A DNA stretch of 31,713 nt from a virus: positions 1 to 31,713 of the IMG/VR virus record IMGVR_UViG_3300020430_000061, one strand, 5' to 3'. Of this stretch, positions 16,524-28,448 are shown in pieces (the stretch's first letter is position 1; the number at the start of each line of letters is the position of its first letter). Under the pieces are notes generated by a model. That model worked only from the letters and a program-made list of their open reading frames with translations, did no database searches and was not told the DNA's origin. The position numbers and the translations under genes are program-made.

Positions 16524-16729
16524 TGAAAAGAGTGAATATACAAGACAGACCAGGACTTCAAAGAGATATTTCCAGTGGTGCTGTAATAAATACTGATAAT
16601 ACCGCTTATGCAAAGGCTTTAAAAGCTCAGGAACTGGCAAAGGCAAAACAAAATGAGATCGAAGATCTCAAACAAGATGTAAAAGAGTTGAAACAACTTA
16701 TGCAAACGATTATTGAGAGGCTTAACTAA
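16523..16729 (+). CDS. Small coiled-coil virion-associated protein
   Basis: This 68-residue protein has a polar N-terminus (VNIQDRPGLQRDISSGAVIN). Residues about 28-66 are a single long helix rich in Lys, Glu, Gln, Ala and Leu with heptad spacing (IEDLKQDVKELKQLMQTI), a short coiled coil. Stop/start TAATG overlaps link it to both the DUF4815-type gene and the following fibre-like gene. Short proteins of this build are common in tail regions of T4-like cyanophages and probably help trimerise or join fibre parts. The function is not known. A similar-sized coiled-coil gene lies at 30568-30783, past the minus-strand block. Confidence 0.8.
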   Translation: MKRVNIQDRPGLQRDISSGAVINTDNTAYAKALKAQELAKAKQNEIEDLKQDVKELKQLMQTIIERLN

Positions 16730-17907
16730 TGGCTGCTATTAATGTACCTGTAACTGATACTTTCGAAAACTGGAGAACCAAAACCAATGACATTTCGACG
16801 TTGGTAGGTGACGGTGGCCAACTTTCAAATGCATATACGGCTAATAACATCATTGGTGTACTTAACGAAATTAAAAGTACTGCCACATTTGATAATGTTA
16901 TAACAATTAACGACCAAGCAACTGATGGAACTACCGAATTAGCTGGTAATGCAGCTAGTATGATTATTAGTACTGGTGCTCAAACAGTTCTTACCATGAA
17001 TCAAACTGGTGACCTTAGTGTACATGCCGATTTGACTACTGGTGGAGTGGCTAATGTTGGTACACAATTAAACGTTACTGGTAATACCATCATTGGTGGT
17101 ACTACTATTTCTCAGCAGTTACTTACCACAAACGGCGGCCTGGATTGTAATGGCAATGCCGATGTATCAGGTACACTAGACGTAAGTGGTGCCACAAGTT
17201 TGGCTGATACACTTGCGGTAACTGGTAATACCACGGTAGGTGGAACACTTACTGTGACAGGTACTACTACTCTAAATAGTACACTTGATATGCAAAATAA
17301 TAATATCAATAGCGTTGGTACTCTTGGAATTACTAATGCAAATGTGGGAACTCTATCAGTTAATAATAATACCACACTTGGTGACGCAACCAGCGACAAT
17401 GTAACATTTAATGCAAGAGTAAATAGTGCATTGAATCCAGATTCTGATAATTCACGTACACTTGGTACTTCATCTTTAAGGTGGTCAACTGTTCACGGTG
17501 TTACCTTCTCGGGTACAGCAACTACCGCAAACTATGCTGACTTGGCTGAGCTTTATCTTTCTGATTTTGCATATGAAGCTGGTACAGTGGTAAGAGTCGG
17601 TGGTGAGTTCGAGGTAACAGCTACTGATGGTGAACATAACCACTCAGTACTTGGAGTAGTATCGGCTTATCCTGCATATCTTATGAACAATCAGTTGGAA
17701 AACGGTTTGCCAATCGCACTGAAAGGCCGAGTACCTGTAAAGGTAAAAGGTTCAGTCAATAAGGGTGATCGCTTAGTGGGTGGGCCAGAAGGGCACGGAA
17801 TCGCTGATAACGATTCACCTCACGGATTTGCGATTGCGCTTGAAGACTTTGTTGCGAAGAAATCTGGCCAAGGTAGATACGGCGTAGTAGAAGCCGTAGT
17901 GCTCTGA
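16729..17907 (+). CDS. Tail-fibre-like structural protein
   Basis: This is a 392-residue protein. After an N-terminal segment (VPVTDTFENWRTKTNDISTL) that resembles virion-attachment ends of marine phage fibres, residues about 90-240 are a series of short V/T/G/N repeats (DVSGTLDVSGATSLADTLAV, TVGGTLTVTGTTTLNSTL), expected for a trimeric beta-structured shaft. Residues about 265-392 form a globular end (TANYADLAELYLSDFAYEAG, DGEHNHSVLGVVSAYPAYLM, ALKGRVPVKVKGSVNKGDRL) known from many phage fibres. I do not see a catalytic S74-type chaperone. It is the last plus-strand gene before the minus-strand block; the two stop codons are 4 bases apart. Confidence 0.85.
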   Translation: MAAINVPVTDTFENWRTKTNDISTLVGDGGQLSNAYTANNIIGVLNEIKSTATFDNVITINDQATDGTTELAGNAASMIISTGAQTVLTMNQTGDLSVHADLTTGGVANVGTQLNVTGNTIIGGTTISQQLLTTNGGLDCNGNADVSGTLDVSGATSLADTLAVTGNTTVGGTLTVTGTTTLNSTLDMQNNNINSVGTLGITNANVGTLSVNNNTTLGDATSDNVTFNARVNSALNPDSDNSRTLGTSSLRWSTVHGVTFSGTATTANYADLAELYLSDFAYEAGTVVRVGGEFEVTATDGEHNHSVLGVVSAYPAYLMNNQLENGLPIALKGRVPVKVKGSVNKGDRLVGGPEGHGIADNDSPHGFAIALEDFVAKKSGQGRYGVVEAVVL

Positions 17908-17911
17908 TAAA

Positions 17912-18439
17912 TTATTCATCACTATAAAGATACATGTCAAATGCTGCTGATACCCGGAGCATATTAACGGGTCTTACACTGTGGTATAAGAAACTAGGGA
18001 ATACTAATAGGTCACCCTGTTCTGGCTGATAAACCAGGTTATCAAACAAAGGTCTAAATTTCATATCATATCCACGGGATGCAAAGTTTCTTGGATCTTG
18101 AAATACGATCTCTCCACCCAAGCCGCTTTCAATAATGGCAATTGCACTTAAATGAGAACCTGCATGTGTGTGCATTTCCATACCAACGTGCTCTTTGTCA
18201 TATTTGTTAATCCATGACTTGACTTGATAGTGATGCCAATCAGACGTTTCCTTATCAAGACTTTGTTCTAGGTGATGTTCAAATCCCTCAAGGACTTGTT
18301 CATACAAATCATCTGTAATTTCATTGAACCCCATAGCCTGGTGAACAATATCATCTGTAATTTCAATATTTGATTTAGTCACTAAAGTCGGAAACAGAAA
18401 ATTCGTTCCCCAGTTCAGCGTCATAGTATCTTCTAACAT
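17912..18439 (-). CDS. 2OG-Fe(II) oxygenase (2OG-FeII_Oxy_5-like)
   Basis: This 175-residue protein is the last gene of the minus-strand block. The core pattern is that of the small phage/marine oxygenase family PF13759: MEMHTHAGSHLSAIAII (His90, His92, His96), then GGEIVFQDPR, then QPEQGDLLVFPSFLYHSVRP with distal His153, and LRVSAAFDMY with Arg162 for 2-oxoglutarate. Such enzymes hydroxylate or otherwise oxidise protein or small-molecule substrates using iron, oxygen and 2-oxoglutarate. The start could also be ATG 18424 (MTLNWGTNFLFPTLV), which would cut the overlap with the upstream gene from 65 to 50 bases. Family members are frequent in T4-like cyanophages, usually without known substrate. 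Confidence 0.88.
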   Translation of the reverse strand: MLEDTMTLNWGTNFLFPTLVTKSNIEITDDIVHQAMGFNEITDDLYEQVLEGFEHHLEQSLDKETSDWHHYQVKSWINKYDKEHVGMEMHTHAGSHLSAIAIIESGLGGEIVFQDPRNFASRGYDMKFRPLFDNLVYQPEQGDLLVFPSFLYHSVRPVNMLRVSAAFDMYLYSDE

Positions 18440-18803
18440 CTGGTACCATCCCTTTCATAGCGAGTTTGCCGCCATTATTAGCGCACACAACTCCAATTAT
18501 TTCATTATACGTATTACTATCTTTCCTATATGGAACAAAGTAATTATCCAATGGAAGAAGCTCGGAATCATTTAGAACATCATAAAAATTTTCATCATAG
18601 TCTTCCATAATCCAAAATGCATAGCAAATTGCTACCATATACGATTTGGCTGGATAGATCCAACCAACATCTTTTTCTCTAAAATATCTTATTGCATTGT
18701 TAACAATATCGTCCGATTCTTCAATGGTAACCCATTTCAAATCATCAGAGTGATTGCGATTTAGTTTGTGATATAGTTGTTGTTTAACTTTCCACTCTTG
18801 CAT
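18375..18803 (-). CDS. Unassigned 142-residue cassette protein
   Basis: I do not recognise a family. The protein starts at ATG 18803 with GGAG 7 bases upstream, inside the end of the radical SAM gene (20-base overlap). It is acidic and rich in Tyr, Trp and Asp. Residues about 30-65 look helical (DDIVNNAIRYFREKDVGWIY, then YMVAICYAFWIMEDY), followed by FYDVLNDSELLPLDNYFVPY, a turn-rich segment. No signal peptide, metal motif or transmembrane helix is evident; the AICYAFWIM stretch is too short. Its place between a radical SAM gene and an oxygenase gene, coupled to both, suggests a partner, carrier or substrate-recognition protein, but that is guesswork. Confidence 0.8.
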   Translation of the reverse strand: MQEWKVKQQLYHKLNRNHSDDLKWVTIEESDDIVNNAIRYFREKDVGWIYPAKSYMVAICYAFWIMEDYDENFYDVLNDSELLPLDNYFVPYRKDSNTYNEIIGVVCANNGGKLAMKGMVPDVRRYYDAELGNEFSVSDFSD

Positions 18804-19686
18804 ACCACTCCAATAGTCCTCTATACCCGTTGCATGAATTTTTTAGATCTTCTACATATCTATAATGTTCTGTCAGGCAACTTCCATACCAAGGACATTC
18901 AAGACAAATTTCAGATAACGCATCTTTTTCAGCTCGGCACCAATCAATATACTTATCATAGTCGTCTAGTTCTAAGAAATATTCTTTATCCCAATTATCA
19001 AATTCTAATACAGCAAAGTTACCATTGGGTGTAATATAAATGTGATCATCAGAAAAAGCATTATATTGACCATAATAAGAATCGATAAGACGTTCTATAT
19101 TTTGAAATTGAAAGTTCTTTTTGACTGGACTTGTAATCCATTTAATAACAAACTCTTCAAAGTCCTTATGTGTTACATTATCGGCATTTGCCTGGTTAAT
19201 TGAGTATGGTTTAATCTCAACAGACATTACCTGGTTACACATATTGAGTTGTTGAATCATTTCGTCCACATTCATTTCCAATACTTTCTTAGATGCCAAG
19301 ATAAGTACGGCAATAGGCTTAGGACTCATTAACATATTATTGAATACTAGGTCGGACTTTTCTCTTGCTGAAAAATCATATGAGACGGAAAGAGTGATTC
19401 CATCGTCGAAGAATCGCTCGTCAAGCATAGAGAAATTAGTATTAATGTTGATAGGACCACTATACCAGCGGCGAATAACTTCGATAATTTCATTATAATA
19501 ATCCTTTTTCAGTGCACCAATCTCTCCACCATATAGATCTACATGGTCAATCTTTGGTACTTCACTTAATAAGAAATCCAACCTTTCAGGAGAAATCTTT
19601 TTTTGATCACCTAATTGTTCTGGTGTAAGATAGCAGAAGTCACAACGAAAGTTACAAAAGTATGATGGATTGATTGATATGTTCAT
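18784..19686 (-). CDS. Radical SAM protein with short C-terminal Cys cluster
   Basis: This is a 300-residue protein. The [4Fe-4S]-SAM motif C-x3-C-x2-C is at Cys11, Cys15 and Cys18 (NPSYFCNFRCDFCYL), and the SAM-contacting GGE is at residues 53-55. The C-terminal region has Cys250, Cys261, Cys264, Cys270 and Cys285 (CLECPWYGSC), a reduced version of the SPASM/twitch auxiliary cluster region; it lacks the first half seen in the other proteins of the block. Radical SAM enzymes with such ends usually act on peptides. It starts in an ATGA overlap with the preceding radical SAM gene, so the two are probably made in equal amounts and may form a pair. Confidence 0.88.
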   Translation of the reverse strand: MNISINPSYFCNFRCDFCYLTPEQLGDQKKISPERLDFLLSEVPKIDHVDLYGGEIGALKKDYYNEIIEVIRRWYSGPININTNFSMLDERFFDDGITLSVSYDFSAREKSDLVFNNMLMSPKPIAVLILASKKVLEMNVDEMIQQLNMCNQVMSVEIKPYSINQANADNVTHKDFEEFVIKWITSPVKKNFQFQNIERLIDSYYGQYNAFSDDHIYITPNGNFAVLEFDNWDKEYFLELDDYDKYIDWCRAEKDALSEICLECPWYGSCLTEHYRYVEDLKNSCNGYRGLLEWYARVES

Positions 19687-20714
19687 ATTGATTCATTTAC
19701 GTACGGTGTCATTTGCATGTCTAAACCGTTCGCCTCTAAGATCTTTGGGCCAAGTTGTTTCATATGATAGCAATGATCTTCTACCATATCATGTTCTTTT
19801 AGGTCTTTAATTGTTTTCTTACAGCCATTACAAATACTAAACATAGGACAGGAATAGCATCCCATCTTTAAACTATTTAGTTCAGGAGAATCAGCCAATG
19901 GTGTAACAAAGCCACCTTTCATTTCAAAGTCAAAGTCAATAGCCTTATCTTTATCATCACCAAAGGCTCCACAAGAATAATAATCACCTTCTGGTTGTAT
20001 GGTTCTAATATTACTGTCACACGTACGCGTAAGCGGGCAGATAGTATTCTCACCACGAATACGTTTCATCATTTGCTGAGTGTTATGTTCCCAAGGAGCT
20101 AAACCAGCTTCCCAGATTTTAATATATTGTTCGTATATCTTGGATAGTCTATACGGAGCATCCTGTTCACCAGATGCCATAGCATAGTTTACCTTACAAA
20201 CCACATCCATTTCTTTTGCAAGTTCAACTGTTTTAATTACACTCCACTCATTTTCCTCAGTGATTACTGCAATAAAGGAAGGTCTATATCCAACATAGTA
20301 TAACATATAGTCAGAACAAACTGTAAAGTCCTGTTCAGTAAATACTGAATAGTCGCCTTTTAATCGGCCTTCACCATACTGAAATGATGTGGCCACACCA
20401 ACACGGCGATGTCTAAAAAGCTTTATCCATTTCTGTGGATTTTTATAGAATGGCCAAAGGTTAGTTGTAAGAGATATTGTGGCAGGCAAATCATTATCAT
20501 CAAGGTACTTAATAATTTCCCAATAGTATTGTGGGTCCATCATTAACGGATCACCACCATTTACAATAATGGTCTTTGTCTCTGGATACCTATCCAAAAA
20601 CTGAAAGATCTTCATAAGGTCGAGCTTAGCCGCTTTATCCTCAACTAACTTAGTTGACGAACAAAAGGTGCATTTGAAATTGCACAACTCTGTCGGCTTA
20701 ATTATTAGGTCCAT
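19683..20714 (-). CDS. Radical SAM/SPASM protein
   Basis: This is a 343-residue protein. The radical SAM motif is at Cys11, Cys15 and Cys18 (KPTELCNFKCTFCSS). GGDP at residues 53-56 replaces the usual GGEP. A C-terminal SPASM-like set is visible at Cys226, Cys232, Cys248, Cys286, Cys289, Cys295, Cys298 and Cys315, enough for two auxiliary iron-sulfur clusters. SPASM proteins generate an adenosyl radical and mostly modify peptides (thioether or carbon-carbon links, epimerisation) or mature sulfatases. The length fits the family. It starts in a TAATG overlap with the upstream oxygenase gene and ends in ATGA with the next radical SAM gene. Confidence 0.92.
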   Translation of the reverse strand: MDLIIKPTELCNFKCTFCSSTKLVEDKAAKLDLMKIFQFLDRYPETKTIIVNGGDPLMMDPQYYWEIIKYLDDNDLPATISLTTNLWPFYKNPQKWIKLFRHRRVGVATSFQYGEGRLKGDYSVFTEQDFTVCSDYMLYYVGYRPSFIAVITEENEWSVIKTVELAKEMDVVCKVNYAMASGEQDAPYRLSKIYEQYIKIWEAGLAPWEHNTQQMMKRIRGENTICPLTRTCDSNIRTIQPEGDYYSCGAFGDDKDKAIDFDFEMKGGFVTPLADSPELNSLKMGCYSCPMFSICNGCKKTIKDLKEHDMVEDHCYHMKQLGPKILEANGLDMQMTPYVNESI

Positions 20715-21274
20715 TAAAATAATGCAGGTACTAAGTACTCAAAGCTTAATACTCGTCTCACTCCACTTTTATGTGTTGCCCGATGTTGGAAACACTTCTT
20801 TTGATTTAACCATACAAAATCTCTACGTGACGGATAGAGAATATTAATATAATCGTTACTTGCTACCTGAATATTATTACCATTTTCTTCGGTATTATCA
20901 TCCATATAGACTAAAATATTAGAATTGAATGCGTCACCATCTTCAAAATCATTATGCCAATTCCTTGATCCTTCGTCTACACCAGACCACATGGCACAGT
21001 CTTTCATTTCAAAGTCATCAAACATTTTTGATACGTAGTTATCAGCAAACCATTGATGGATTCGGCTAAGATCAGACTTTGCCTTAGGATCTAACCATAT
21101 CTCTTCTGGTTGATTACAATCTTTGAAATCGAATGATTCAAACATTTCGATGTCGAGGTCATCAGGCAAAGTACCTAACCAATAACCATCGACAAAGAAT
21201 GTTTGTTCAGGAGTCATTTGGTCTTGAGTATCCGTATCTATACGTACAATCTTCTGTATATTCTGTGTCTCCAA
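20714..21274 (-). CDS. 2OG-Fe(II) oxygenase (prolyl-hydroxylase-like)
   Basis: The protein has 186 residues from a TTG at 21274. The jelly-roll core is clear: NWHNDFEDGDAFNSNILVYM gives the iron ligands His107 and Asp109, CFQHRATHKSGVRRVLSFEY gives distal His164 and the 2-oxoglutarate-binding Arg173/174. The start is uncertain: TTG 21274 has AAGGAG 9 bases upstream, whereas ATG 21217 (MTPEQTFFVDGYWLG) has no good site but gives a shorter overlap with the preceding gene. The frame is open to 21292. It resembles the oxygenase at 21493-21996 in its W-H-x-D-F/T-E-D core and R-R-V-x-S-F end, so the two may be paralogues acting on related substrates. Confidence 0.85.
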   Translation of the reverse strand: METQNIQKIVRIDTDTQDQMTPEQTFFVDGYWLGTLPDDLDIEMFESFDFKDCNQPEEIWLDPKAKSDLSRIHQWFADNYVSKMFDDFEMKDCAMWSGVDEGSRNWHNDFEDGDAFNSNILVYMDDNTEENGNNIQVASNDYINILYPSRRDFVWLNQKKCFQHRATHKSGVRRVLSFEYLVPALF

Positions 21275-21509
21275 TTGCTTCCACTCCTTCAATTTCGCAT
21301 ATGAGTCTATTACACTCTCGTATTTCTTCCTTAACCATATTTGAGTATGGCTCTAAGTTTTGGATCATATCGGCATATTGATTATACTTGAACTCATCGC
21401 CTTGATGGTCATGCATCTTAGTAATCCAAAGGTTATATAATTCAGCGGTCAAATCTCTTTCTTTACAAAGAGTCTTTTTTCTTTCAACGACCTCAGATAT
21501 TGTAGTCAA
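21207..21509 (-). CDS. Small unassigned helical protein between two oxygenases
   Basis: This 100-residue protein starts at TTG 21509, preceded by a very strong ribosome-binding site (AAAGGAGGG, 10-base spacer) inside the end of the upstream oxygenase gene. Residues about 1-75 look like two long helices rich in Glu, Lys, Met and Asn (VVERKKTLCKERDLTAELYN, then MIQNLEPYSNMVKEEIRECN). The tail is Tyr/Asp/Thr-rich with a third region YTEDCTYRYGYSRP. Five cysteines are scattered, without a known metal motif. No family is recognised. Its overlaps with both flanking oxygenase genes support a real, co-translated gene; it could bind a substrate or bridge the two enzymes, but this is not shown. Confidence 0.68.
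   Translation of the reverse strand: MTTISEVVERKKTLCKERDLTAELYNLWITKMHDHQGDEFKYNQYADMIQNLEPYSNMVKEEIRECNRLICEIEGVEAIGDTEYTEDCTYRYGYSRPNDS
21284..21289 (-). promoter_or_regulatory. Ribosome-binding site for a possible TTG start at 21274
   Basis: AAGGAG on the minus strand with a 9-base spacer to TTG 21272-21274. It is the only good site near the start of the oxygenase gene. Confidence 0.45.
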
Positions 21510-21996
21510 AACTTGCTACCCTCCTTTGAATCTTTGTATCTTCGGCTCTATGCCAGAATCCACGTTCATTAGAGATTAGAAATAGGTCACCTTTCTTTGG
21601 CTGATAACTTGCTTCACAGTCACCATCCCATTTGAAATTGATAGACCCACCAGTCTCTTCGGCAGTATCATCAAAATAGTATAGGAAGAAAATATCATAG
21701 TCTTCAAAAGTATCGGTATGCCAACCCTGATTATCTTTATCAACTCCATCCCATACTAAGAACTTATTAAAGCTAGCCTCTGGCCAATTTGGCTTAACAT
21801 ATTCCTGTTCTAAATAATAACCAAAGAGTCTCATCTTATTGGTTAATTGAACATCAACATCCTTTTCACCGTTATCTCTTGCTCTTTCTTCTGTGTTTAA
21901 TAAACGGTGATCATCTAATCTTACTAAGTCTAAGCCTGCAGGAACATTACCGATATAGGCATATCCTACCTCTTTCAGTTTCTCTTTTAACGTCAT
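21493..21996 (-). CDS. 2OG-Fe(II) oxygenase (prolyl-hydroxylase-like)
   Basis: This 167-residue protein starts at ATG 21996 in an ATGA overlap with the B12-type radical SAM gene, with AGGAG 7 bases upstream. The catalytic set is complete: GWHTDTFEDYDIFFLYYFDD supplies His93 and Asp95, GFWHRAED supplies His149, and QRRVASFDYN supplies Arg158/159. A KKGDLFLISNE strand precedes the distal His, as in many hydroxylases of this fold. It would use iron, oxygen and 2-oxoglutarate to hydroxylate or desaturate a substrate, possibly the product of the neighbouring radical SAM enzymes. No signal peptide, so it acts in the host cytoplasm. Confidence 0.9.
   Translation of the reverse strand: MTLKEKLKEVGYAYIGNVPAGLDLVRLDDHRLLNTEERARDNGEKDVDVQLTNKMRLFGYYLEQEYVKPNWPEASFNKFLVWDGVDKDNQGWHTDTFEDYDIFFLYYFDDTAEETGGSINFKWDGDCEASYQPKKGDLFLISNERGFWHRAEDTKIQRRVASFDYNI
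21518..21527 (-). promoter_or_regulatory. Strong ribosome-binding site for a TTG start
   Basis: AAAGGAGGGT on the minus strand, with 10 bases between its GGAGG core and TTG 21507-21509. No ATG occurs before residue 32 of the frame, so this site fixes the start. Confidence 0.6.
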
Positions 21997-23672
21997 GCAA
22001 GTCTCCTAAATAATTCACTGATCAGTATTGGGCGGTTCTTTTCTAAGAACTCCTCAATTGTGTCAACTCTAAATTTACCACCAAGCTGCCTAATAGACCT
22101 AGGTGGAGTGGATGGACAGAATATATCTTCGATCTCAGTATATATCCCCTCCCAACCATCTAGATTAATTATAACACAAAAACACTCTTTTGTAAACCCC
22201 TGAGGTGAAATTATTTCATCAAAAATTGGATAAATGTTCTTTAACAAATAATTAGCCGCGTTGTTCATAAAATACATCTGGTGCATCTCATGGTGAGTAA
22301 AAGAGTTGCAAGACCTAATGGTATGGAAATAAGTCTTCTTATTTTTATATAGGCTATTCCAATTGTCTGTGCCGTCTTCATCTACGATATCAGAATAGAC
22401 TTCGACTGTTTCAATGTTGTGTAACATTTTATAGTCAGCTGAATTTAGTCGTGAATCGGGTAAGAACATATAGTCGTGTCTAAATGATCCCCATGCTTTG
22501 AAGTTGTTAATGATCTCCATTTCATTATAGAAATCTTCCAAGGTAGAACCTGGCATGGCTAGGATAAGTTCAAGAGCTGGGATCGGAAAGCCATGTTCTT
22601 TACATCGTTGATTGATATACCTACTCAGTTCCAGTTTGTTTTCAGTTGATAGATCCACTCTATCAGCCAGTTTCATAGCTTCTTCACTAATACTTTGAAT
22701 GGAAACCGTTGGAACTACCGATACATATTCAGTTTCGCCCCACATATCTAAGCCACCTTTACCTTCACCAGACTTAGGTGCCCTTGCATCTTTACCAACA
22801 ATATCAAACCAACGGTCAATTAGTCGTTTACGTCTTTTAATATCTTTAGACTTCATGGTAGAGATATCGGTAAGATTGAAACCATTTTCCCAACCAAAGG
22901 CGAAGATCTCTAGGTCACGATCTTCAAAGGCTCCAAAGTTAGCATCAGTTAAATATGCATCACGGTATCCAGCGGCTTTCATAGCTAGAATATCACGTTT
23001 AACGATCTCAATATCCTTTTTATAGATCTTGGTATTAATACCACCACCCCACTCGCAGAATACACATTTGTATGGACAGCCTCTTGTTGTTTCGATAACA
23101 ATAAAAGGTTCCATATTGTTTTGTCTAGCATAGTCAACTGATTCTTTTAGATAATCCTGGTGTTCTTCGTATATAGAATAATCTTCGGTAGACAGGTCAT
23201 GGATGCGTCCAGTACCATTACGAAGTTCCCATGCAATACTTTTTGGATCTAGTCGATTCTCAATATAACAATCGATTAGGTCTTCCATAAAAGGCTCACC
23301 TGGTTTTGTAGGCTCACAAATATAATCGTAATATTTTCGACCTCTTAAAAGGTCTGGATCATTTGTACCAATATGAGGTCCACCAAGTACTAGGATCTTT
23401 TCGGGATATTGTGACTTGATATGTTTTGCGATGCCATCCACAATTGTATAGTTCCAGGCATAGGAACTGAACATGATGACATCAGCAGATTTAATTTCTG
23501 CGATGACGTCATCGTATGACTCGTATTGGTTCCATTTGTATGGAGCCGGGATAAATTCGACTTGGTCTGCATAGCGGCCTCGGTGCTTATAGTGACTTTG
23601 AATTAACAAATAGGTCACATTGTTCGCTAGTGACCAGTCAGCGTGTGGTGGGTTTATAAATGCTATCCGCAT
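21993..23672 (-). CDS. B12-binding-domain radical SAM protein
   Basis: The protein has 559 residues from ATG 23672 (MRIAFINPPHADWSL); an upstream ATG at 23702 would add 10 residues. Residues 1-130 look like the Rossmann-type B12-binding domain of class B radical SAM methyltransferases (MRIAFINPP, ADVIMFSSYAWNY, KILVLGGPHIGTND). The radical SAM motif C-x3-C-x2-C is at Cys199, Cys203 and Cys206 (TTRGCPYKCVFCEWGG). Further conserved parts are DAYLTDANFG and LELILAMPGSTLEDF. Such enzymes often methylate unreactive carbons of peptides, sugars or lipids, but some do ring chemistry. Cobalamin would have to come from the host. The C-terminal 200 residues are not assignable. Confidence 0.88.
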   Translation of the reverse strand: MRIAFINPPHADWSLANNVTYLLIQSHYKHRGRYADQVEFIPAPYKWNQYESYDDVIAEIKSADVIMFSSYAWNYTIVDGIAKHIKSQYPEKILVLGGPHIGTNDPDLLRGRKYYDYICEPTKPGEPFMEDLIDCYIENRLDPKSIAWELRNGTGRIHDLSTEDYSIYEEHQDYLKESVDYARQNNMEPFIVIETTRGCPYKCVFCEWGGGINTKIYKKDIEIVKRDILAMKAAGYRDAYLTDANFGAFEDRDLEIFAFGWENGFNLTDISTMKSKDIKRRKRLIDRWFDIVGKDARAPKSGEGKGGLDMWGETEYVSVVPTVSIQSISEEAMKLADRVDLSTENKLELSRYINQRCKEHGFPIPALELILAMPGSTLEDFYNEMEIINNFKAWGSFRHDYMFLPDSRLNSADYKMLHNIETVEVYSDIVDEDGTDNWNSLYKNKKTYFHTIRSCNSFTHHEMHQMYFMNNAANYLLKNIYPIFDEIISPQGFTKECFCVIINLDGWEGIYTEIEDIFCPSTPPRSIRQLGGKFRVDTIEEFLEKNRPILISELFRRLA

Positions 23673-24657
23673 ATCTAAAAGTCGCCTTAAAAACGCATTC
23701 ATCCATATCTTGTTCTATATGTTTATAGTCCTCTTTAATAAAACAAGATAGCGGGCAGCGTTGAAAGTATTCACATTCAAAACAGTTATATTTGCCGAGA
23801 AAATTCTCAACGATTTGTGGACCACCTAGTTCTTCAGTTTGAGCATCTTTCAAGAACACAGAACCAGAACAACCCTGAGGTTTAGCACCATCAGGCATGA
23901 TAGTTAACGAGTTGCCCCTTGTACATATCATTTTGTTTGCTGGTTTGTCATTTACGAAATGATCAATATTCAAACATCTAGGATATTTATTCACCAACAC
24001 CTTATAGAATTCAAATAATTCTTTTTCACTTGGCATTAAAATTCTTGAGGTAGCTACACTTGGTAAGAAGTGATCAAAGTCACAGGTATAGTTAGTGTAT
24101 AGATCTTCAAAGAGCTGATCATTAGCAATAATACGATCTATGTTTTGTTTGGTTGCTACAATAGAAACCATTTCAATATGATCTTGGAAATAGATTATAT
24201 TGCGTGTAAATATTTCTAAATCTGATTTACTAAACCGGCCGGCGGGATCATAGCTAATCGAAACTTTCAAATCATTACGATCTAGGAAGTCCATTACTGG
24301 TTTACGGTTTTCAAATACCAGATTTGTAATAAAATTAAAGTGAATGTCTGACTTTGTTTGGATGTCAATAAGAGATATAAGGTCTTCATAGTGTTTAAGA
24401 AAACCTTGGTCAATCCACCGATCTTGAAATAGCTCACCACCCATAAGATGAATCTTATAGGCCTGTTGACGCGGGTTATTATTAATCCAATTTACAATTG
24501 GACTTACCTTCTCCATGATTTCATCATAGGAGGCGCCAAGAATAGAGTTATGGTCTTGTGGGCAGAATGCGCATTTTAGATTACAATGTTCAAATAAGCA
24601 AACAACTATCTCACCATAACGAACTACTTTAGTATCAATCAAGTCATAGATATTCAT
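23638..24657 (-). CDS. Radical SAM/SPASM protein
   Basis: This is a 339-residue protein. The radical SAM motif is at Cys25, Cys29 and Cys32 (FEHCNLKCAFCPQ), and GGE is at residues 73-75. The C-terminal auxiliary-cluster region has Cys245, Cys263, Cys292, Cys295, Cys301, Cys305 and Cys321 (CFECEYFQRCPLSC), a SPASM layout. The extended N-terminus of about 20 residues before the motif differs from the other three small radical SAM proteins, whose motif starts at residue 11-16. It starts in a TAATG overlap with the unknown gene upstream and ends inside the B12-type radical SAM gene. A peptide substrate is likely for the family. Confidence 0.92.
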   Translation of the reverse strand: MNIYDLIDTKVVRYGEIVVCLFEHCNLKCAFCPQDHNSILGASYDEIMEKVSPIVNWINNNPRQQAYKIHLMGGELFQDRWIDQGFLKHYEDLISLIDIQTKSDIHFNFITNLVFENRKPVMDFLDRNDLKVSISYDPAGRFSKSDLEIFTRNIIYFQDHIEMVSIVATKQNIDRIIANDQLFEDLYTNYTCDFDHFLPSVATSRILMPSEKELFEFYKVLVNKYPRCLNIDHFVNDKPANKMICTRGNSLTIMPDGAKPQGCSGSVFLKDAQTEELGGPQIVENFLGKYNCFECEYFQRCPLSCFIKEDYKHIEQDMDECVFKATFRYADSIYKPTTR

Positions 24658-25793
24658 TACATCACTGCGTATTGCTCTCTAAATTCCTTTTTGCCGTCAA
24701 GTAATCCTTGTACGAAATAGTTATTTACTGTCTCAAGGTCAATTGAGAAGAAAGAACCAGCGGCATGTTCATAGGTAGCTTCTACCTCTAGGATAGTATC
24801 CAATTCCTTATCGGTAATCTCACCAGCCGATACAGCTTTTACAAAGTCTAGCTTTGAGACATCAGACTTTACAAATTCGTATACGCTTTCCTCTTGCCAA
24901 CATGCACCAGCCAACTTAGTAAATTTTTGGAATGACTTGATATGTTTGTCGGTGATTGCATCAAAGTTTACATTCTTACCAGAGGATGCAATATTCATAT
25001 ACGGTGACTTCCAAATATTCTTATCTAAGAACAGCTTTGGAAACTCAGACTTGTCTTCTAAAATCTCATTATAGTTGGTAAAGTCATATGTCTTTTCCAG
25101 ACCCAGAGTTTCGGTAAACCTTTGAGTAAGTAAATGAGCAAAGAAGATTTCTTTTAATTCATACAGATACTTTTCTAAATCTTTCTTCAATAGGATCTTC
25201 ATTACATTTTTCAGCTCTTTTTTCATCTTACCATTTGTAAGATAGGTAGCCAAAAGATATTCAAAGCTCAGAGCAGCTTTGTTTTCGGTAATGAATTGTT
25301 TGCGTCTGGCAGCCGTTGGTTTATTGGCGCCATTAAAGATCTTTTTGAATCCACTAATATCGATTGAGTGCTGACCAAGACCAGCATTACCAGAGAATCG
25401 ACCTTGGTTGAATACCTCATATTTGAATACCATTGACTCAAGTAAGTCAACACAAGCATCGGCATTTGGCTTGGCAAAGATAAGTTTAAACCAAAGAGCC
25501 ATTATGACTTTGAATGCTTTGCTATCACAATAAACAACTACTCGTTTACCGGTAGCATCGGTATGATCTCCAAGCTTATCAAACATGTCCATGGTGTCCA
25601 TGTAAGGTAATTCTTTAGAACCAATTAGGTTTTTGACTTCTTTTGCATGTGCTAATAACGTACCTGGCTGCATATCTTGTGCAGCTGGTTCATAAAACTC
25701 ATAGCCATGTTCAGCCGAAATAACAACACGGTCAAATGATACATCAATAATATGGTCTGTTGCTACGTAAACCTTCTTAAACAGATGTAGCAT
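24657..25793 (-). CDS. Unassigned 378-residue cassette protein
   Basis: The start is ATG 25793 (MLHLFKKVYVATDHIIDVSF), with AGGAG 7 bases upstream; the frame is open to 25829 but lacks a site there. I recognise no family. The N-terminal 110 residues are mixed alpha/beta, including EHGYEFYEPAAQDMQPGTLL and GKRVVVYCDSKAFKVIMALW. The middle is helical and Lys-rich (KMKKELKNVMKILLKKDLEK), and the C-terminal 100 residues look helical. No signal peptide, metal motif or nucleotide-binding loop is seen. It lies between the other unknown gene and a SPASM radical SAM gene, coupled to both, and could be a scaffold or substrate-binding protein. Confidence 0.85.
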   Translation of the reverse strand: MLHLFKKVYVATDHIIDVSFDRVVISAEHGYEFYEPAAQDMQPGTLLAHAKEVKNLIGSKELPYMDTMDMFDKLGDHTDATGKRVVVYCDSKAFKVIMALWFKLIFAKPNADACVDLLESMVFKYEVFNQGRFSGNAGLGQHSIDISGFKKIFNGANKPTAARRKQFITENKAALSFEYLLATYLTNGKMKKELKNVMKILLKKDLEKYLYELKEIFFAHLLTQRFTETLGLEKTYDFTNYNEILEDKSEFPKLFLDKNIWKSPYMNIASSGKNVNFDAITDKHIKSFQKFTKLAGACWQEESVYEFVKSDVSKLDFVKAVSAGEITDKELDTILEVEATYEHAAGSFFSIDLETVNNYFVQGLLDGKKEFREQYAVM

Positions 25794-26448
25794 TTTCTTT
25801 CTCCTGTAATTTACCAGTGGCAATACCACTCGTTAATAGAAACATGGGATTGTTTTCATTTGCCCAGTAACTATATAGATTATTTCCTTTAAACATATAG
25901 TCATTAAAATATGACTTATAATATACTTTGTGCTCTGGAATAACTCTTCCATAGAACATAAAGAATTTCTCCTGGTCTAAAAGAGATACAAAATTGACAC
26001 CCGTTAAATCTTTAGTATCATCTTCTGGATATGACATAACATAATCTTTTATGGTAGGTGAATCCACGGTGTAAAGATTATATAGTGTAAGTGCATCTAA
26101 TTTTTTAGTCCACTCTTTTAGAATGTCGACATTAGCATCAATAAACTCTTTTTCGGTTAGTTCAGCCAAGCCTTTCATCTGAAGAAGCAAATTAATAACA
26201 CGATCTTTTAGAATTGGAATGTTTACGATAAAGTTTGCTTCAAGATAATGCTTGGTCATTTCATCAAAGGCTTCTTGAGTGGTAAACCCAATATCACATG
26301 GAATTTCTAAGTTCCCTAGATAGGTGAGTAGCTTTGATCCTTGAAGGGTAGACTCTTCGTAATGAATCAGGTAAAATGTGTCTTTATCATTAAAGAATAA
26401 TTTAAGCTCCTCCAATTCGATAGGAGCGGTCGTCTCAATAACATTCAT
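25777..26448 (-). CDS. Unassigned protein coupled to the Cys-His-x-Ser-tailed protein
   Basis: This 223-residue protein starts at ATG 26448, whose A is the last base of the TAA stop of the tailed protein gene (TAATG). The two are therefore likely made together. No family is recognised. It is acidic and rich in aromatic residues. The N-terminal half alternates strands and helices (LKLFFNDKDTFYLIHYEEST, FIVNIPILKDRVINLLLQMK), and the C-terminal part is Tyr/Phe-rich (YYKSYFNDYMFKGNNLYSYW). No signal peptide or metal motif. Direct coupling to the candidate substrate makes a chaperone, leader-binding or partner role worth considering, but only position supports this. Confidence 0.82.
   Translation of the reverse strand: MNVIETTAPIELEELKLFFNDKDTFYLIHYEESTLQGSKLLTYLGNLEIPCDIGFTTQEAFDEMTKHYLEANFIVNIPILKDRVINLLLQMKGLAELTEKEFIDANVDILKEWTKKLDALTLYNLYTVDSPTIKDYVMSYPEDDTKDLTGVNFVSLLDQEKFFMFYGRVIPEHKVYYKSYFNDYMFKGNNLYSYWANENNPMFLLTSGIATGKLQEKENATSV
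25801..25805 (-). promoter_or_regulatory. Ribosome-binding site deciding the start at 25793
   Basis: AGGAG on the minus strand with a 7-base spacer to ATG 25791-25793. It places the start 12 codons inside the longest open frame. Confidence 0.65.
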
Positions 26449-27029
26449 TATCTTCTTCCTCTGGAACTATGGCAAGAGCTATGACATGATGCATGGCAAG
26501 TGTTTAGAGTAACTGTTGTAGTCGTTCCTCTTGCTGCATTATATAAGTCTCTCAATTGAGCAAATTTTTGTTCTAAATGAGAATCATCGATCATTGTATA
26601 TGATCCACTTCCCAATACAATAGAACCGTTATATACAGAGTTTTGACGATATGAAGTACTCATATATGCAATTGCAGTATTATCGTAAATAATACCAGGT
26701 GATGGTTGTGAACCAGTGTTACCTCCACCGCCAGTAATATTATGACGAGCTCTTAAACTACGAATTGAGCTATAATTAAATGTTTCGTTTTCAATTGCTG
26801 TTTCTAGTCCACCGCCAGTAATTAACTCACCGCTATTTTTTAAAGATGCACCTGTAATTCCAAGTGATCTGCCGCCTGTGGTTCCGCCAAAATAGCTAGG
26901 CCAGTCGCCATGTGAAAATGGGTGAGCATTAGATCCCCATGAAATACCAGTGTTTGCAGCTGGTGGCACATAGTCAGCAAATCGATTTACAATGTTTTGG
27001 TCTTCGACCGGATTAGTTAGTGTTGCCAT
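26448..27029 (-). CDS. Cys-His-x-Ser-tailed protein, candidate modification substrate
   Basis: This is a 193-residue protein. The N-terminal 145 residues are rich in Gly, Ser, Thr, Asn and Tyr (GISWGSNAHPFSHGDWPSYF, GGTTGGRSLGITGASLKNSG, NITGGGGNTGSQPSPGIIYD), resembling phage structural proteins more than a short leader. Residues about 148-166 are probably helical (SHLEQKFAQLRDLYNAARG), followed by a TTTTVTLNT strand. The end, residues 178-193, is CHASCHSSCHSSRGRR: three Cys-His-x-Ser units and a basic tail. All three cysteines are here. It overlaps a SPASM radical SAM gene upstream by 17 bases and an unknown gene downstream, inside a block of radical SAM and oxygenase genes. I infer it is a substrate; a metal-binding virion protein is the alternative. 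Confidence 0.85.
   Translation of the reverse strand: MATLTNPVEDQNIVNRFADYVPPAANTGISWGSNAHPFSHGDWPSYFGGTTGGRSLGITGASLKNSGELITGGGLETAIENETFNYSSIRSLRARHNITGGGGNTGSQPSPGIIYDNTAIAYMSTSYRQNSVYNGSIVLGSGSYTMIDDSHLEQKFAQLRDLYNAARGTTTTVTLNTCHASCHSSCHSSRGRR
26463..26498 (-). repeat. Three tandem Cys-His-x-Ser codon units
   Basis: Twelve codons encode CHAS, CHSS and CHSS in residues 178-189 of the tailed protein. Cys uses TGC and TGT, and Ser uses TCA, AGC, TCT, AGT and TCC. The mixed codons show the repeat is kept at protein level rather than being a fresh DNA duplication. Confidence 0.9.
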
Positions 27030-28047
27030 ATTTCTCGTCCAATTCTTTCATTAAAAATCTTGGCGCGCCACATATATCATCTTCCCAAGCCAATTGGTGG
27101 CAGTCGCCTTTACAGTATTTATACACTTTGCACTCGTAACATCGTGGATCTCTTTGCAATTCTTCCATGATAACATTACAGCGTTTTGGCGAATTGATAA
27201 CCAATTCTGGCGGTTCCATAATATGTCCAAAAGCACTTGTTGGAGCCGAATTTGGACATCCGGCTATCCCACCGTCAGCATTTATAGTGAATAGCTTTTG
27301 TTCACAGTCACGGCAAAATGTACCGGCGCCGGTATAGCCAGTTTCAAATTTGGTGTATATGTTTTCCATAAACTCATTATCAAACCAACTGCGAGCTCCA
27401 GTTGATTCCATAAAGTGATGCATATCTAAGAAATAGTTTTGTAGGTCTAGGTTAGATGGAAAGACTGGATTGCGAGTGGCATTACCATCATGAGTAATAC
27501 GTTCAAGGGCCATTTCTTGTACACCTAAATCTCTGACATATCTTAATAGCTTTTCAGGACCCATTTGAATAGTATCACTTGTAAGTGATACAAACAACTT
27601 AATAGTATAACCTCTTTGTAATAATAATTTGACATTTGATTCAAATAGATCTCTTTGTTTCTCATTATCAAATCGAATGGTTGGATCCCATGAGGTACCA
27701 ATACGTTTGTTGCATACACTATCTAAAAAGTCTAATCGTTTTTCGGTAAGTTTAAGAACCAGGTTAGTGGTGATACCATAAGTAGCATCATCACCCCACT
27801 TTTCCTGCGTTAATTCATAGAATCTCATCATATCATTAACAGGCGCAAGAAAAGGCTCACCACCGTGATACTCAAAATGAGTGGTCATTGTTGGATGAAG
27901 TTCTTTTAATTCATTACACCACTTGGCTACAGCATCAGGATTAAAATAAATCTTGGCTCCATTGATACCATTTGTAAAGCAGTGGTCACAGTTTAGATTA
28001 CATGTCTCCGTCGTTTTGACGTAGATCATAGTGTCATTTTTAATCAT
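27013..28047 (-). CDS. Radical SAM/SPASM protein next to the candidate substrate
   Basis: This is a 344-residue protein. The radical SAM motif is at Cys16, Cys20 and Cys23 (TTETCNLNCDHCFTNG) and GGEP at residues 62-65. The C-terminal SPASM set is Cys245, Cys248, Cys264, Cys303, Cys306, Cys312, Cys316 and Cys326 (GTFCRDCEQKLFTINADGG, RCYECKVYKYCKGDCHQ), matching the anaerobic-sulfatase-maturase / peptide-modifying group in layout. The start overlaps the cupin-like gene (ATGA); ATG at residue 7 is an alternative. Its stop lies 17 bases inside the Cys-His-x-Ser protein gene. This adjacency makes it the first candidate to act on that protein. Confidence 0.93.
   Translation of the reverse strand: MIKNDTMIYVKTTETCNLNCDHCFTNGINGAKIYFNPDAVAKWCNELKELHPTMTTHFEYHGGEPFLAPVNDMMRFYELTQEKWGDDATYGITTNLVLKLTEKRLDFLDSVCNKRIGTSWDPTIRFDNEKQRDLFESNVKLLLQRGYTIKLFVSLTSDTIQMGPEKLLRYVRDLGVQEMALERITHDGNATRNPVFPSNLDLQNYFLDMHHFMESTGARSWFDNEFMENIYTKFETGYTGAGTFCRDCEQKLFTINADGGIAGCPNSAPTSAFGHIMEPPELVINSPKRCNVIMEELQRDPRCYECKVYKYCKGDCHQLAWEDDICGAPRFLMKELDEKYGNTN
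27116..27123 (-). promoter_or_regulatory. Internal late promoter box (TATAAATA) before the tailed-protein gene
   Basis: A perfect TATAAATA on the minus strand lies inside the SPASM radical SAM gene, 87 bases before the start at 27029. It is the only exact match on that strand that I found in the block. It overlaps Val-Tyr-Lys-Tyr codons, so chance is possible. Confidence 0.45.
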
Positions 28048-28448
28048 TCAATTCCTATTGATAACATAATAGATGGTTCAATATTCATAGCATGGTGAGG
28101 TGTATTTGCTGGGATCTTAATATAACTACCTTCTTCAATAATAGTTATCTCGCCATCAATCATCATAGTTTTGGATCCTTCTAAAACGTATATAAATACA
28201 TCTATAGGATCTGTATGATCCGGAAACGAAATGCCGAAAGGAGGTGAGATATAACAATGAACCGTATGTTTATCCGTTATGCCGAGCTTTTGCACAATAT
28301 GTTCAAACTCATGTTCAAGCCCTTCTACCTTGACGACGTTTCGCTCCTCAGCGATATGTCTGCCGATAGAAAGTACAGGGATTACGTGATCGCGCCCAGC
28401 ACTATCAATAAAACAAGCTTTTGAACCTTTATGCAAAATATCGAGCAA
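28044..28448 (-). CDS. Cupin / JmjC-like protein, first gene of the minus-strand block
   Basis: The protein has 134 residues from TTG 28448. A cupin core is visible: HCYISPPFGISFPDHTDPID, VFIYVLEGSKTMMIDGE, then EEGSYIKIPANTPHHAMN. His78 and Asp80 (H-x-D) with His118 or His119 form an iron-binding triad of the kind used by JmjC-type 2-oxoglutarate hydroxylases; the 'ISPP-G-x-x-x-P-H-x-D' arrangement recalls bacterial ribosomal-protein hydroxylases such as YcfD. A simple metal-binding cupin is the alternative. No ATG occurs near the start; the frame is open further up to 28475 and reads plausibly, so a rare ATT start at 28472 cannot be excluded. It overlaps the SPASM gene by ATGA. Confidence 0.8.
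   Translation of the reverse strand: MLDILHKGSKACFIDSAGRDHVIPVLSIGRHIAEERNVVKVEGLEHEFEHIVQKLGITDKHTVHCYISPPFGISFPDHTDPIDVFIYVLEGSKTMMIDGEITIIEEGSYIKIPANTPHHAMNIEPSIMLSIGIE

Follow-up and report, generated by a model that had tools for sequence, protein, structure and literature searches.

What does a run of radical S-adenosylmethionine (SAM) and iron-oxygenase-type genes do in the tail region of a T4-like phage? This question is raised by a viral stretch of 31,713 nucleotides, here called the window (positions 1 to 31,713 of IMG/VR record IMGVR_UViG_3300020430_000061), which as a whole is a T4-like phage tail region with a baseplate wedge (phrog_219) and fibre families. At positions 17912-28448 its minus strand carries an operon of 14 open reading frames (ORFs), with overlaps of 1-86 nucleotides at all 13 junctions and with plus-strand T4-like baseplate and fibre genes on either side. 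The products are four radical SAM enzymes, named A to D, a B12 radical SAM enzyme, four Fe(II)-oxygenase types, four small or unknown proteins and a protein of 193 residues. A preliminary description, made from the DNA letters, had claimed a gap-free 14-gene operon with five radical SAM and four iron-oxygenase-type genes; every ORF was recovered where it had been placed, and the count was confirmed by Pfam and NCBIfam domains and motifs. The operon is probably a maturation module for a virion protein associated with the fibre, whose C-terminal core it would modify after translation.

The core and its carrier protein

The 193-residue protein ends in TCHASCHSSCHSSRGRR. It had been put forward as a repeat-tailed possible substrate, and the tail proved real; among the operon genes, only this one has a near-invariant short C-terminal segment. 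The core pattern is CHxSCHxSCHxSRxRR, 16 residues at the very terminus with mostly Gly at position 14, and CH..CH..CH was located in the last 25 residues of all 212 ORFs having it. Two scans of different bias were used, one for the DNA pattern of the core in IMG/VR and the other with enzyme A as a query blind to the motif. Among 153 distinct genes that fit the core pattern, C1, H2, C5, H6, C9, H10, R13, R15 and R16 are fixed, Ser occupies positions 4, 8 and 12 in 144-150 of the genes, and Gly occupies position 14 in 140. The same tails were found in the enzyme-A set, rarely with Q, N or A at the Ser positions. Furthermore, the core codons vary silently, with AGY versus TCN for Ser and AGR versus CGN for Arg, so that the peptide is what selection acts on. 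These silent changes at fixed residues, including AGY/TCN switches, also rule out the alternative of a DNA or RNA element at the end of the gene. We infer that the CHxS segment is the substrate of the operon enzymes.

AlphaFold modeled the substrate with a predicted local distance difference test score of 86 overall and about 52 in the tail, the body being a confident fold. The CHxS proteins are 130-310 residues long, of which 110-290 residues belong to a confidently folded body. No similar solved structure was found for the substrate body by PDB fold search. In a viral structure library it matches a 296-residue protein of Agrobacterium phage Atu_ph07 at 15% identity (E 1.6e-7), so that one fold carries the core in distant phages. 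BFVD matches also place the body fold in longer proteins of 504-660 residues from Myoviridae sp. ctijX18 (A0A8S5USJ8, A0A8S5USJ7 and A0A8S5USV2). At 50% identity the substrates form 39 clusters, compared with 16 for B, six each for A and D, and one for C.

Recurrence of the operon and its linkage to fibres

When p223, encoded directly behind the substrate, and enzyme A were each searched by tblastn against 50,697 phage records, the same seven records were matched by both: Sinorhizobium phage Phosso, Agrobacterium phage Atu_ph07 (twice), Burkholderia phages FLC6, FLC8 and SURPRISE13, and Pseudomonas phage pPa_SNUABM_DT01. In each of six phage loci compared, the cupin is followed in order by A, a variable protein, p223, B, C, D and p142, and p390 or further genes are scattered among these; the variable proteins read from the phage loci end in CHTSCHASCHSSRSRR, CHSSCHASCHNSRSRR, CHSSCHTSCHGSRGRR and CHTSCHTSCHSARGRR. 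The 193-residue protein itself gave no tblastn match in phages, even at E 1, because its body diverges; the true homologues were found via the neighbour genes. The operon-bearing phages are not close relatives. Passages of PMC6102473 place Atu_ph07 in the T4 superfamily, and FLC6 shares radical SAM, cupin and 2-oxoglutarate (2OG) proteins with RSF1 (passages of PMC8066314), itself a relative of PhiKZ-like phages (passages of PMC5468394).

In IMG/VR, the core DNA pattern was found in at least 120 stretches, 117 of them with an ORF, and 105 of these 117 with another cassette gene in the stretch; the enzyme-A scan gave 80 loci. More than 100 IMG/VR contigs hold the operon. A gene with CH..CH..CH was sought in 85 loci, consisting of 79 enzyme-A loci and the six phage loci. 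It lies at most 900 nucleotides downstream of A in 55 and elsewhere in the locus in seven; six loci meet a contig edge, and in 17 the gene is locally absent, of which eight are records with a tandem pair elsewhere on the contig and nine are fragments shorter than 24 kb. The order cupin-A-substrate-p223-B-C-D-p142 is kept in 69 of 75 complete loci. Within these 75, p223 and B are always present, the cupin in 70, some 2OG protein in 69, p390 in 68, p142 in 62 and the B12 enzyme in 32. Enzymes A-D, the cupin, p223, p142 and the substrate thus make up the core set, while the B12 and 2OG genes look accessory. Residues other than Ser at core positions 4, 8 and 12 were counted in 12 of 90 cases with the B12 enzyme versus one of 105 without it in complete loci, a weak trend uncorrected for kinship. 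The preliminary description had proposed co-occurrence in one order as a check on a single modification system and had named homologues that never co-occur as an argument against it; the genes do recur in conserved order in unrelated phages. Together with the near-invariant core, this supports one system acting on a peptide. Since the same enzyme set stands beside a small fibre-linked protein with a constant 16-residue tail in many unrelated phages and in a few predatory bacteria, the tail is very probably chemically remodelled.

Split-type loci hold the substrate pair and p223 at a distance from the enzymes. Examples are L015:2523-3286 and L031:136-971, where two tandem substrate genes of about 126-140 residues stand directly behind the fibre and apart from the enzymes. 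Of the proteins encoded here, p223, which lies behind the substrate in both architectures, is the likeliest to serve as a chaperone or adaptor.

Could the tail instead serve as it is made, its three Cys and three His forming an unmodified metal-binding or disulfide tip, while the enzymes make a small molecule or change the fibre? Fixed Cys and His are ordinary metal ligands, the split-type loci part the enzymes from the substrate, and the fibre gene is linked equally. Such a tip is nevertheless unlikely, since A adjoins the substrate in most loci and always shares its record when the record is long enough, and since conservation of the core parallels that of the enzymes and not that of the body.

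A link of the substrate to the virion is also supported by the genes nearby. Across 131 loci, 132 homologues of the fibre gene that adjoins the operon were found; none is more than 1 kb away from the module, and the median distance is 12 nucleotides. An antisense insertion in the tail module, as first described, holds for the window and not in general, for 126 of the 132 linked fibre genes are on the operon's own strand. Downstream of the fibre, the cupin comes first among the cassette genes in 90 cases and the substrate in 34, so that split-type loci keep fibre and substrate together. At L144:11007-11933 (also in L145-L147), a chimera joins the N-terminal 37 residues of the substrate to a Gly_rich_2 domain, a domain typical of tail-fibre tips; it lies between enzyme A and a shortened CHxS protein that holds the rest of the substrate.

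Passages of PMC6102473 state that the virion proteins of Atu_ph07 identified by mass spectrometry lie mostly in coding sequences 31-76, 170-215 and 284-329. In the Atu_ph07 record, whose numbering agrees with those passages, gp170 is the CHxS protein, gp181 a baseplate wedge, gp198 the portal and gp204 the prohead core. The block 170-215 starts at gp170, leaving p223, B and C (gp169, gp168 and gp165) outside it; because the block begins with the substrate gene, gp170 appears to have been detected in Atu_ph07 virions. Placement of the substrate in the virion is therefore suggested with the support of that proteome statement. The earlier proposal that the product is part of the virion, or acts with it, gains ground from the fibre-gene linkage, the Gly_rich_2 chimera and, indirectly, this proteome.

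These observations also bear on a classical ribosomally synthesized and post-translationally modified peptide (RiPP), in which the modified core would be cut off and released as a toxin, signal or superinfection factor, the body being only a leader. A ribosomal precursor with a conserved core segment indeed lies beside tailoring enzymes, several SPASM enzymes and oxygenases among them, and the core is C-terminal as in most RiPPs. Release is still distinctly improbable: no protease or transporter family was recognised by Pfam or NCBIfam in the cassette, or by Pfam in frequent accessory genes, although host proteases may act instead; the folded bodies are bigger than usual leaders; the module is linked to fibres; and, as far as the Atu_ph07 passages go, a virion-protein block starts at the CHxS gene. 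The RiPP logic of the preliminary description therefore fits the enzymes and not a released peptide product.

Copies of the module were found in cellular genomes as well. When 257 Gb of contigs from bacteria and archaea were scanned for the core, 14 matches came up, of which 11 are real and end in the RxRR core; three look like chance, having neither a cassette gene nor an RxRR terminus. Some of the cellular matches are probably phage contigs in metagenome bins. Several Bdellovibrionota copies lie among cellular genes for a thiolase, a clostripain, a two-component kinase, an AMP-binding enzyme and an ABC protein; chromosomal copies were seen in L229-L230, L231, L232, L233, L239 and L243. The module is rare, the core with its neighbours occurring in five of 129 genomes of one class and p223 in three of 144 of another. 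Each of eight such genomes has only one to five S74 fibre-chaperone genes, yet six of them carry one at a distance of about 3-14 kb from the module; in the remaining two it is on another contig. The fibre association thus recurs in a cellular setting. One S74 protein (L232:4629-5921), encoded inside the cluster, bears a pilin-type N-terminal methylation motif. According to passages of PMC10769870, predatory Bdellovibrio use phage-like trimeric MAT/S74 fibres on prey; those passages make no mention of radical SAM.

Enzymes, relatives and layout of the locus

The CxxxCxxC motif was found in 57 of 58 distinct homologues of A and in every one of B (50), C (37), D (40) and the B12 enzyme (20). Full SPASM sets of seven to eight conserved cysteines are present in A, B and C, whereas D has a reduced, twitch-like set of four; with the B12 domain also found, this bears out the early assignment of four SPASM-type or related enzymes and one B12-type enzyme. 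Among solved structures, A is closest to the anaerobic sulfatase maturase (anSME), with which it aligns over the full SPASM enzyme (E 1.8e-8). The nearest solved relatives of the B12 enzyme are TokK and CysS, known methyltransferases, and its B12-binding and radical SAM domains, like those of characterised methyltransferases, point to a probable C-methyltransferase. The HxD...H triad of the cupin is invariant across homologues. In profile comparison the cupin resembles quercetin dioxygenase and, less closely, the histidyl hydroxylases MINA53 and NO66 (E 1e-5 to 3e-3), so that membership of the JmjC ribosomal-oxygenase subfamily is not claimed. None of the operon enzymes passed an NCBIfam equivalog cut-off, and the reaction is therefore not readable from family membership. 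HHalign comparison among p223, p390, p142, the substrate and the cupin gave no hidden relationship, and a PDB fold search with p223 gave no match. Two dihydrofolate-reductase-like genes lie within the operon, between B and C, in Burkholderia phages (L010:18325-19538 and L013:18394-19571), and the operon of Pseudomonas phage DT01 (L011:15488-20965) holds further radical SAM genes besides A-D.

Do known systems account for this set? The His-Xaa-Ser system (HxsA/B/C/D) combines paired radical SAM enzymes with a neighbouring protein that ends in repeated H-x-S units. The operon shares both features with it (TIGR03977, TIGR03978), and B and C match HxsB and HxsC weakly, but here three C-H-x-S units precede RxRR, there are four radical SAM enzymes and also oxygenases, and the setting is that of a phage fibre. 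Membership was rejected at 26.6 against a cut-off of 267.9 bits for HxsC and 24.5-28.3 against 370 bits for HxsB; sactipeptide, ranthipeptide and dynobactin families were likewise rejected, all scores lying under the cut-offs. The nearest NCBIfam relatives of A and C are dynobactin/darobactin-type SPASM maturases (DynA, DarE, PapB, GrrM), with 41-44 bits to DynA; these scores are far under cut-offs of 450 and more, and the operon differs from such systems in its large folded substrate and in having no recognised export gene. Both anSME and quinohemoprotein maturase modify a protein that stays whole, but they are single-enzyme cellular systems without a CHxS core, and A falls below their NCBIfam cut-offs. 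Gly-rich phage fibre-tip adhesins resemble the substrate as small genes beside a fibre, and its N-terminus is joined to Gly_rich_2 in the chimeras; unlike it, known adhesins have neither the CHxS core nor the enzymes, and the substrate body fold is not in the PDB.

Two other uses of radical SAM enzymes were weighed here. Auxiliary metabolic genes for host iron-sulfur (Fe-S) or iron metabolism have a precedent in a marine T4-like viral genome whose 12 radical SAM genes were read as Fe-S related (passages of PMC5332604), yet radical SAM enzymes use Fe-S clusters and do not assemble them, and the fixed order, the CHxS gene and p223 would be left unexplained, so that we consider this very unlikely. 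Viperin-like nucleotide chemistry in defence or counter-defence is scarcely credible: the pVip matches in PADLOC are weak (18-30 bits) and limited to the shared radical SAM core, SPASM cysteines are present, and the NCBIfam model gives 15-25 bits against a cut-off of 180.

The operon genes and the adjoining fibre gene are collected in Table 1. The contig that contains the window is 45,093 bases long and belongs to an assembly of 2.03 Mb. Left of the window on this scaffold (L234:1376-2170, contig C9), an alphaproteobacterial-type permuted transfer-messenger RNA (tmRNA) and a tRNA-Leu(taa) lie at the contig start, about 2 kb ahead of the first phage-like genes, and ambiguous bases occur in the scaffold. 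The tmRNA indicates either an alphaproteobacterial host joined to the phage, or a phage-borne tmRNA, or a chimeric scaffold.

Table 1. Genes of the operon and the adjoining fibre gene, with positions in the window
Feature	Position	Strand	Evidence or remark
Cupin/JmjC-like Fe(II) protein, operon gene 1	28044..28448	-	Pfam Cupin_2 E 7e-11, JmjC_2 E 2e-6; HxD (H78, D80) and H118
Radical SAM/SPASM enzyme A	27013..28047	-	Pfam/NCBIfam radical SAM domain, SPASM cysteines
Putative substrate, 193 residues, fibre-linked, folded body and C-terminal core	26448..27029	-	
Codons of the 16-residue core CHASCHSSCHSSRGRR, residues 178-193 of the 193-residue protein	26451..26498	-	
p223 (phrog_20767), signature partner protein	25777..26448	-	In 75/75 complete loci
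p390, conserved protein	24657..25829	-	68/75 loci; conserved start Met probably ORF residue 13
Radical SAM/SPASM enzyme B	23638..24657	-	Pfam/NCBIfam radical SAM domain, SPASM cysteines
B12-binding radical SAM enzyme, probable C-methyltransferase, accessory	21993..23702	-	Radical SAM and B12 domains; 32/75 loci
2OG-Fe(II) oxygenase	21493..21996	-	PF13640
Small protein of 100 residues	21207..21509	-	Found in few loci
2OG-like protein of 192 residues	20714..21292	-	HxD...H motif; phrog_19592 shared with 21493-21996
Radical SAM/SPASM enzyme C, most conserved enzyme	19683..20714	-	One cluster at 50% identity
Radical SAM enzyme D, twitch-like	18784..19686	-	Four C-terminal Cys
p142 (phrog_20737), conserved putative helper	18375..18803	-	
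2OG-Fe(II) oxygenase	17912..18439	-	PF13759
Tail-fibre protein	16729..17907	+	Homologues adjoin operon in 131 loci

Proposed maturation and its meaning

A mechanism can be proposed in which the substrate would be made beside the tail fibre as a folded, fast-evolving body with a flexible C-terminal core of 16 residues. Enzymes A-D, of the SPASM/twitch peptide-maturase type, would act on the core before assembly together with the cupin/JmjC-like Fe(II) protein, p223 and p142, while the B12 radical SAM enzyme and the 2OG oxygenases would add lineage-dependent changes. The modified protein would then be built into the virion with the fibre, and the fixed core could form a tip, cross-linked, metal-bound or reactive, that makes a host-independent contact with the cell surface. 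A diverging body with a fixed core suits such a host-independent job, and the core probably acts at the cell surface. As to the bonds, one may guess by analogy at His/Cys cross-links from the SPASM enzymes, Ser/Cys oxidation from an anSME-like activity and His/Arg hydroxylation from the cupin; the H-x-S and C-x3-C spacing might suit His or Cys cross-links or Ser/Cys oxidation.

Several points weigh against this maturation. We know of no mass shift, product or in vitro reaction; the fixation of residues in the pattern-scan set was partly imposed by the search pattern itself; the cupin is missing from five of the 75 complete loci, and the B12 and 2OG genes vary; a shared insertion position could explain the fibre linkage; and the detection of gp170 is read from a block boundary given in passages of the published proteome.

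The enzyme superfamilies are already known and the gene logic is RiPP-like. To our knowledge, no phage has a virion protein remodelled by a multi-enzyme operon of radical SAM enzymes and dioxygenases, and no description of such a system was found in the full-text collection searched, most subscription journals and bioRxiv being outside its coverage. Passages of phage papers list the genes as radical SAM, Fe-S oxidoreductase, cupin or 2OG, uninterpreted (PMC8066314, PMC11898562, PMC5468394), and the CHxS protein is not described in passages of these three or of PMC5332604.

More speculatively, and as a tentative proposal, a non-canonical amino-acid structure built by radical SAM enzymes at the end of a fibre protein might be a near-universal chemical contact for Gram-negative surfaces, passed among unrelated phage lineages and also placed by predatory bacteria on the fibres with which they catch prey. 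If maturation of the core is true, it would be an undescribed kind of virus-particle chemistry, and it would explain the several radical SAM genes in many jumbo and T4-like phages, until now listed as unexplained or metabolic. With a defined substrate motif, the chemistry would be directly testable by mass spectrometry in cultured phages. Finally, a tail near-invariant on a fibre-linked protein across phages of very different hosts and predatory bacteria points to a common target or physical task at Gram-negative surfaces.

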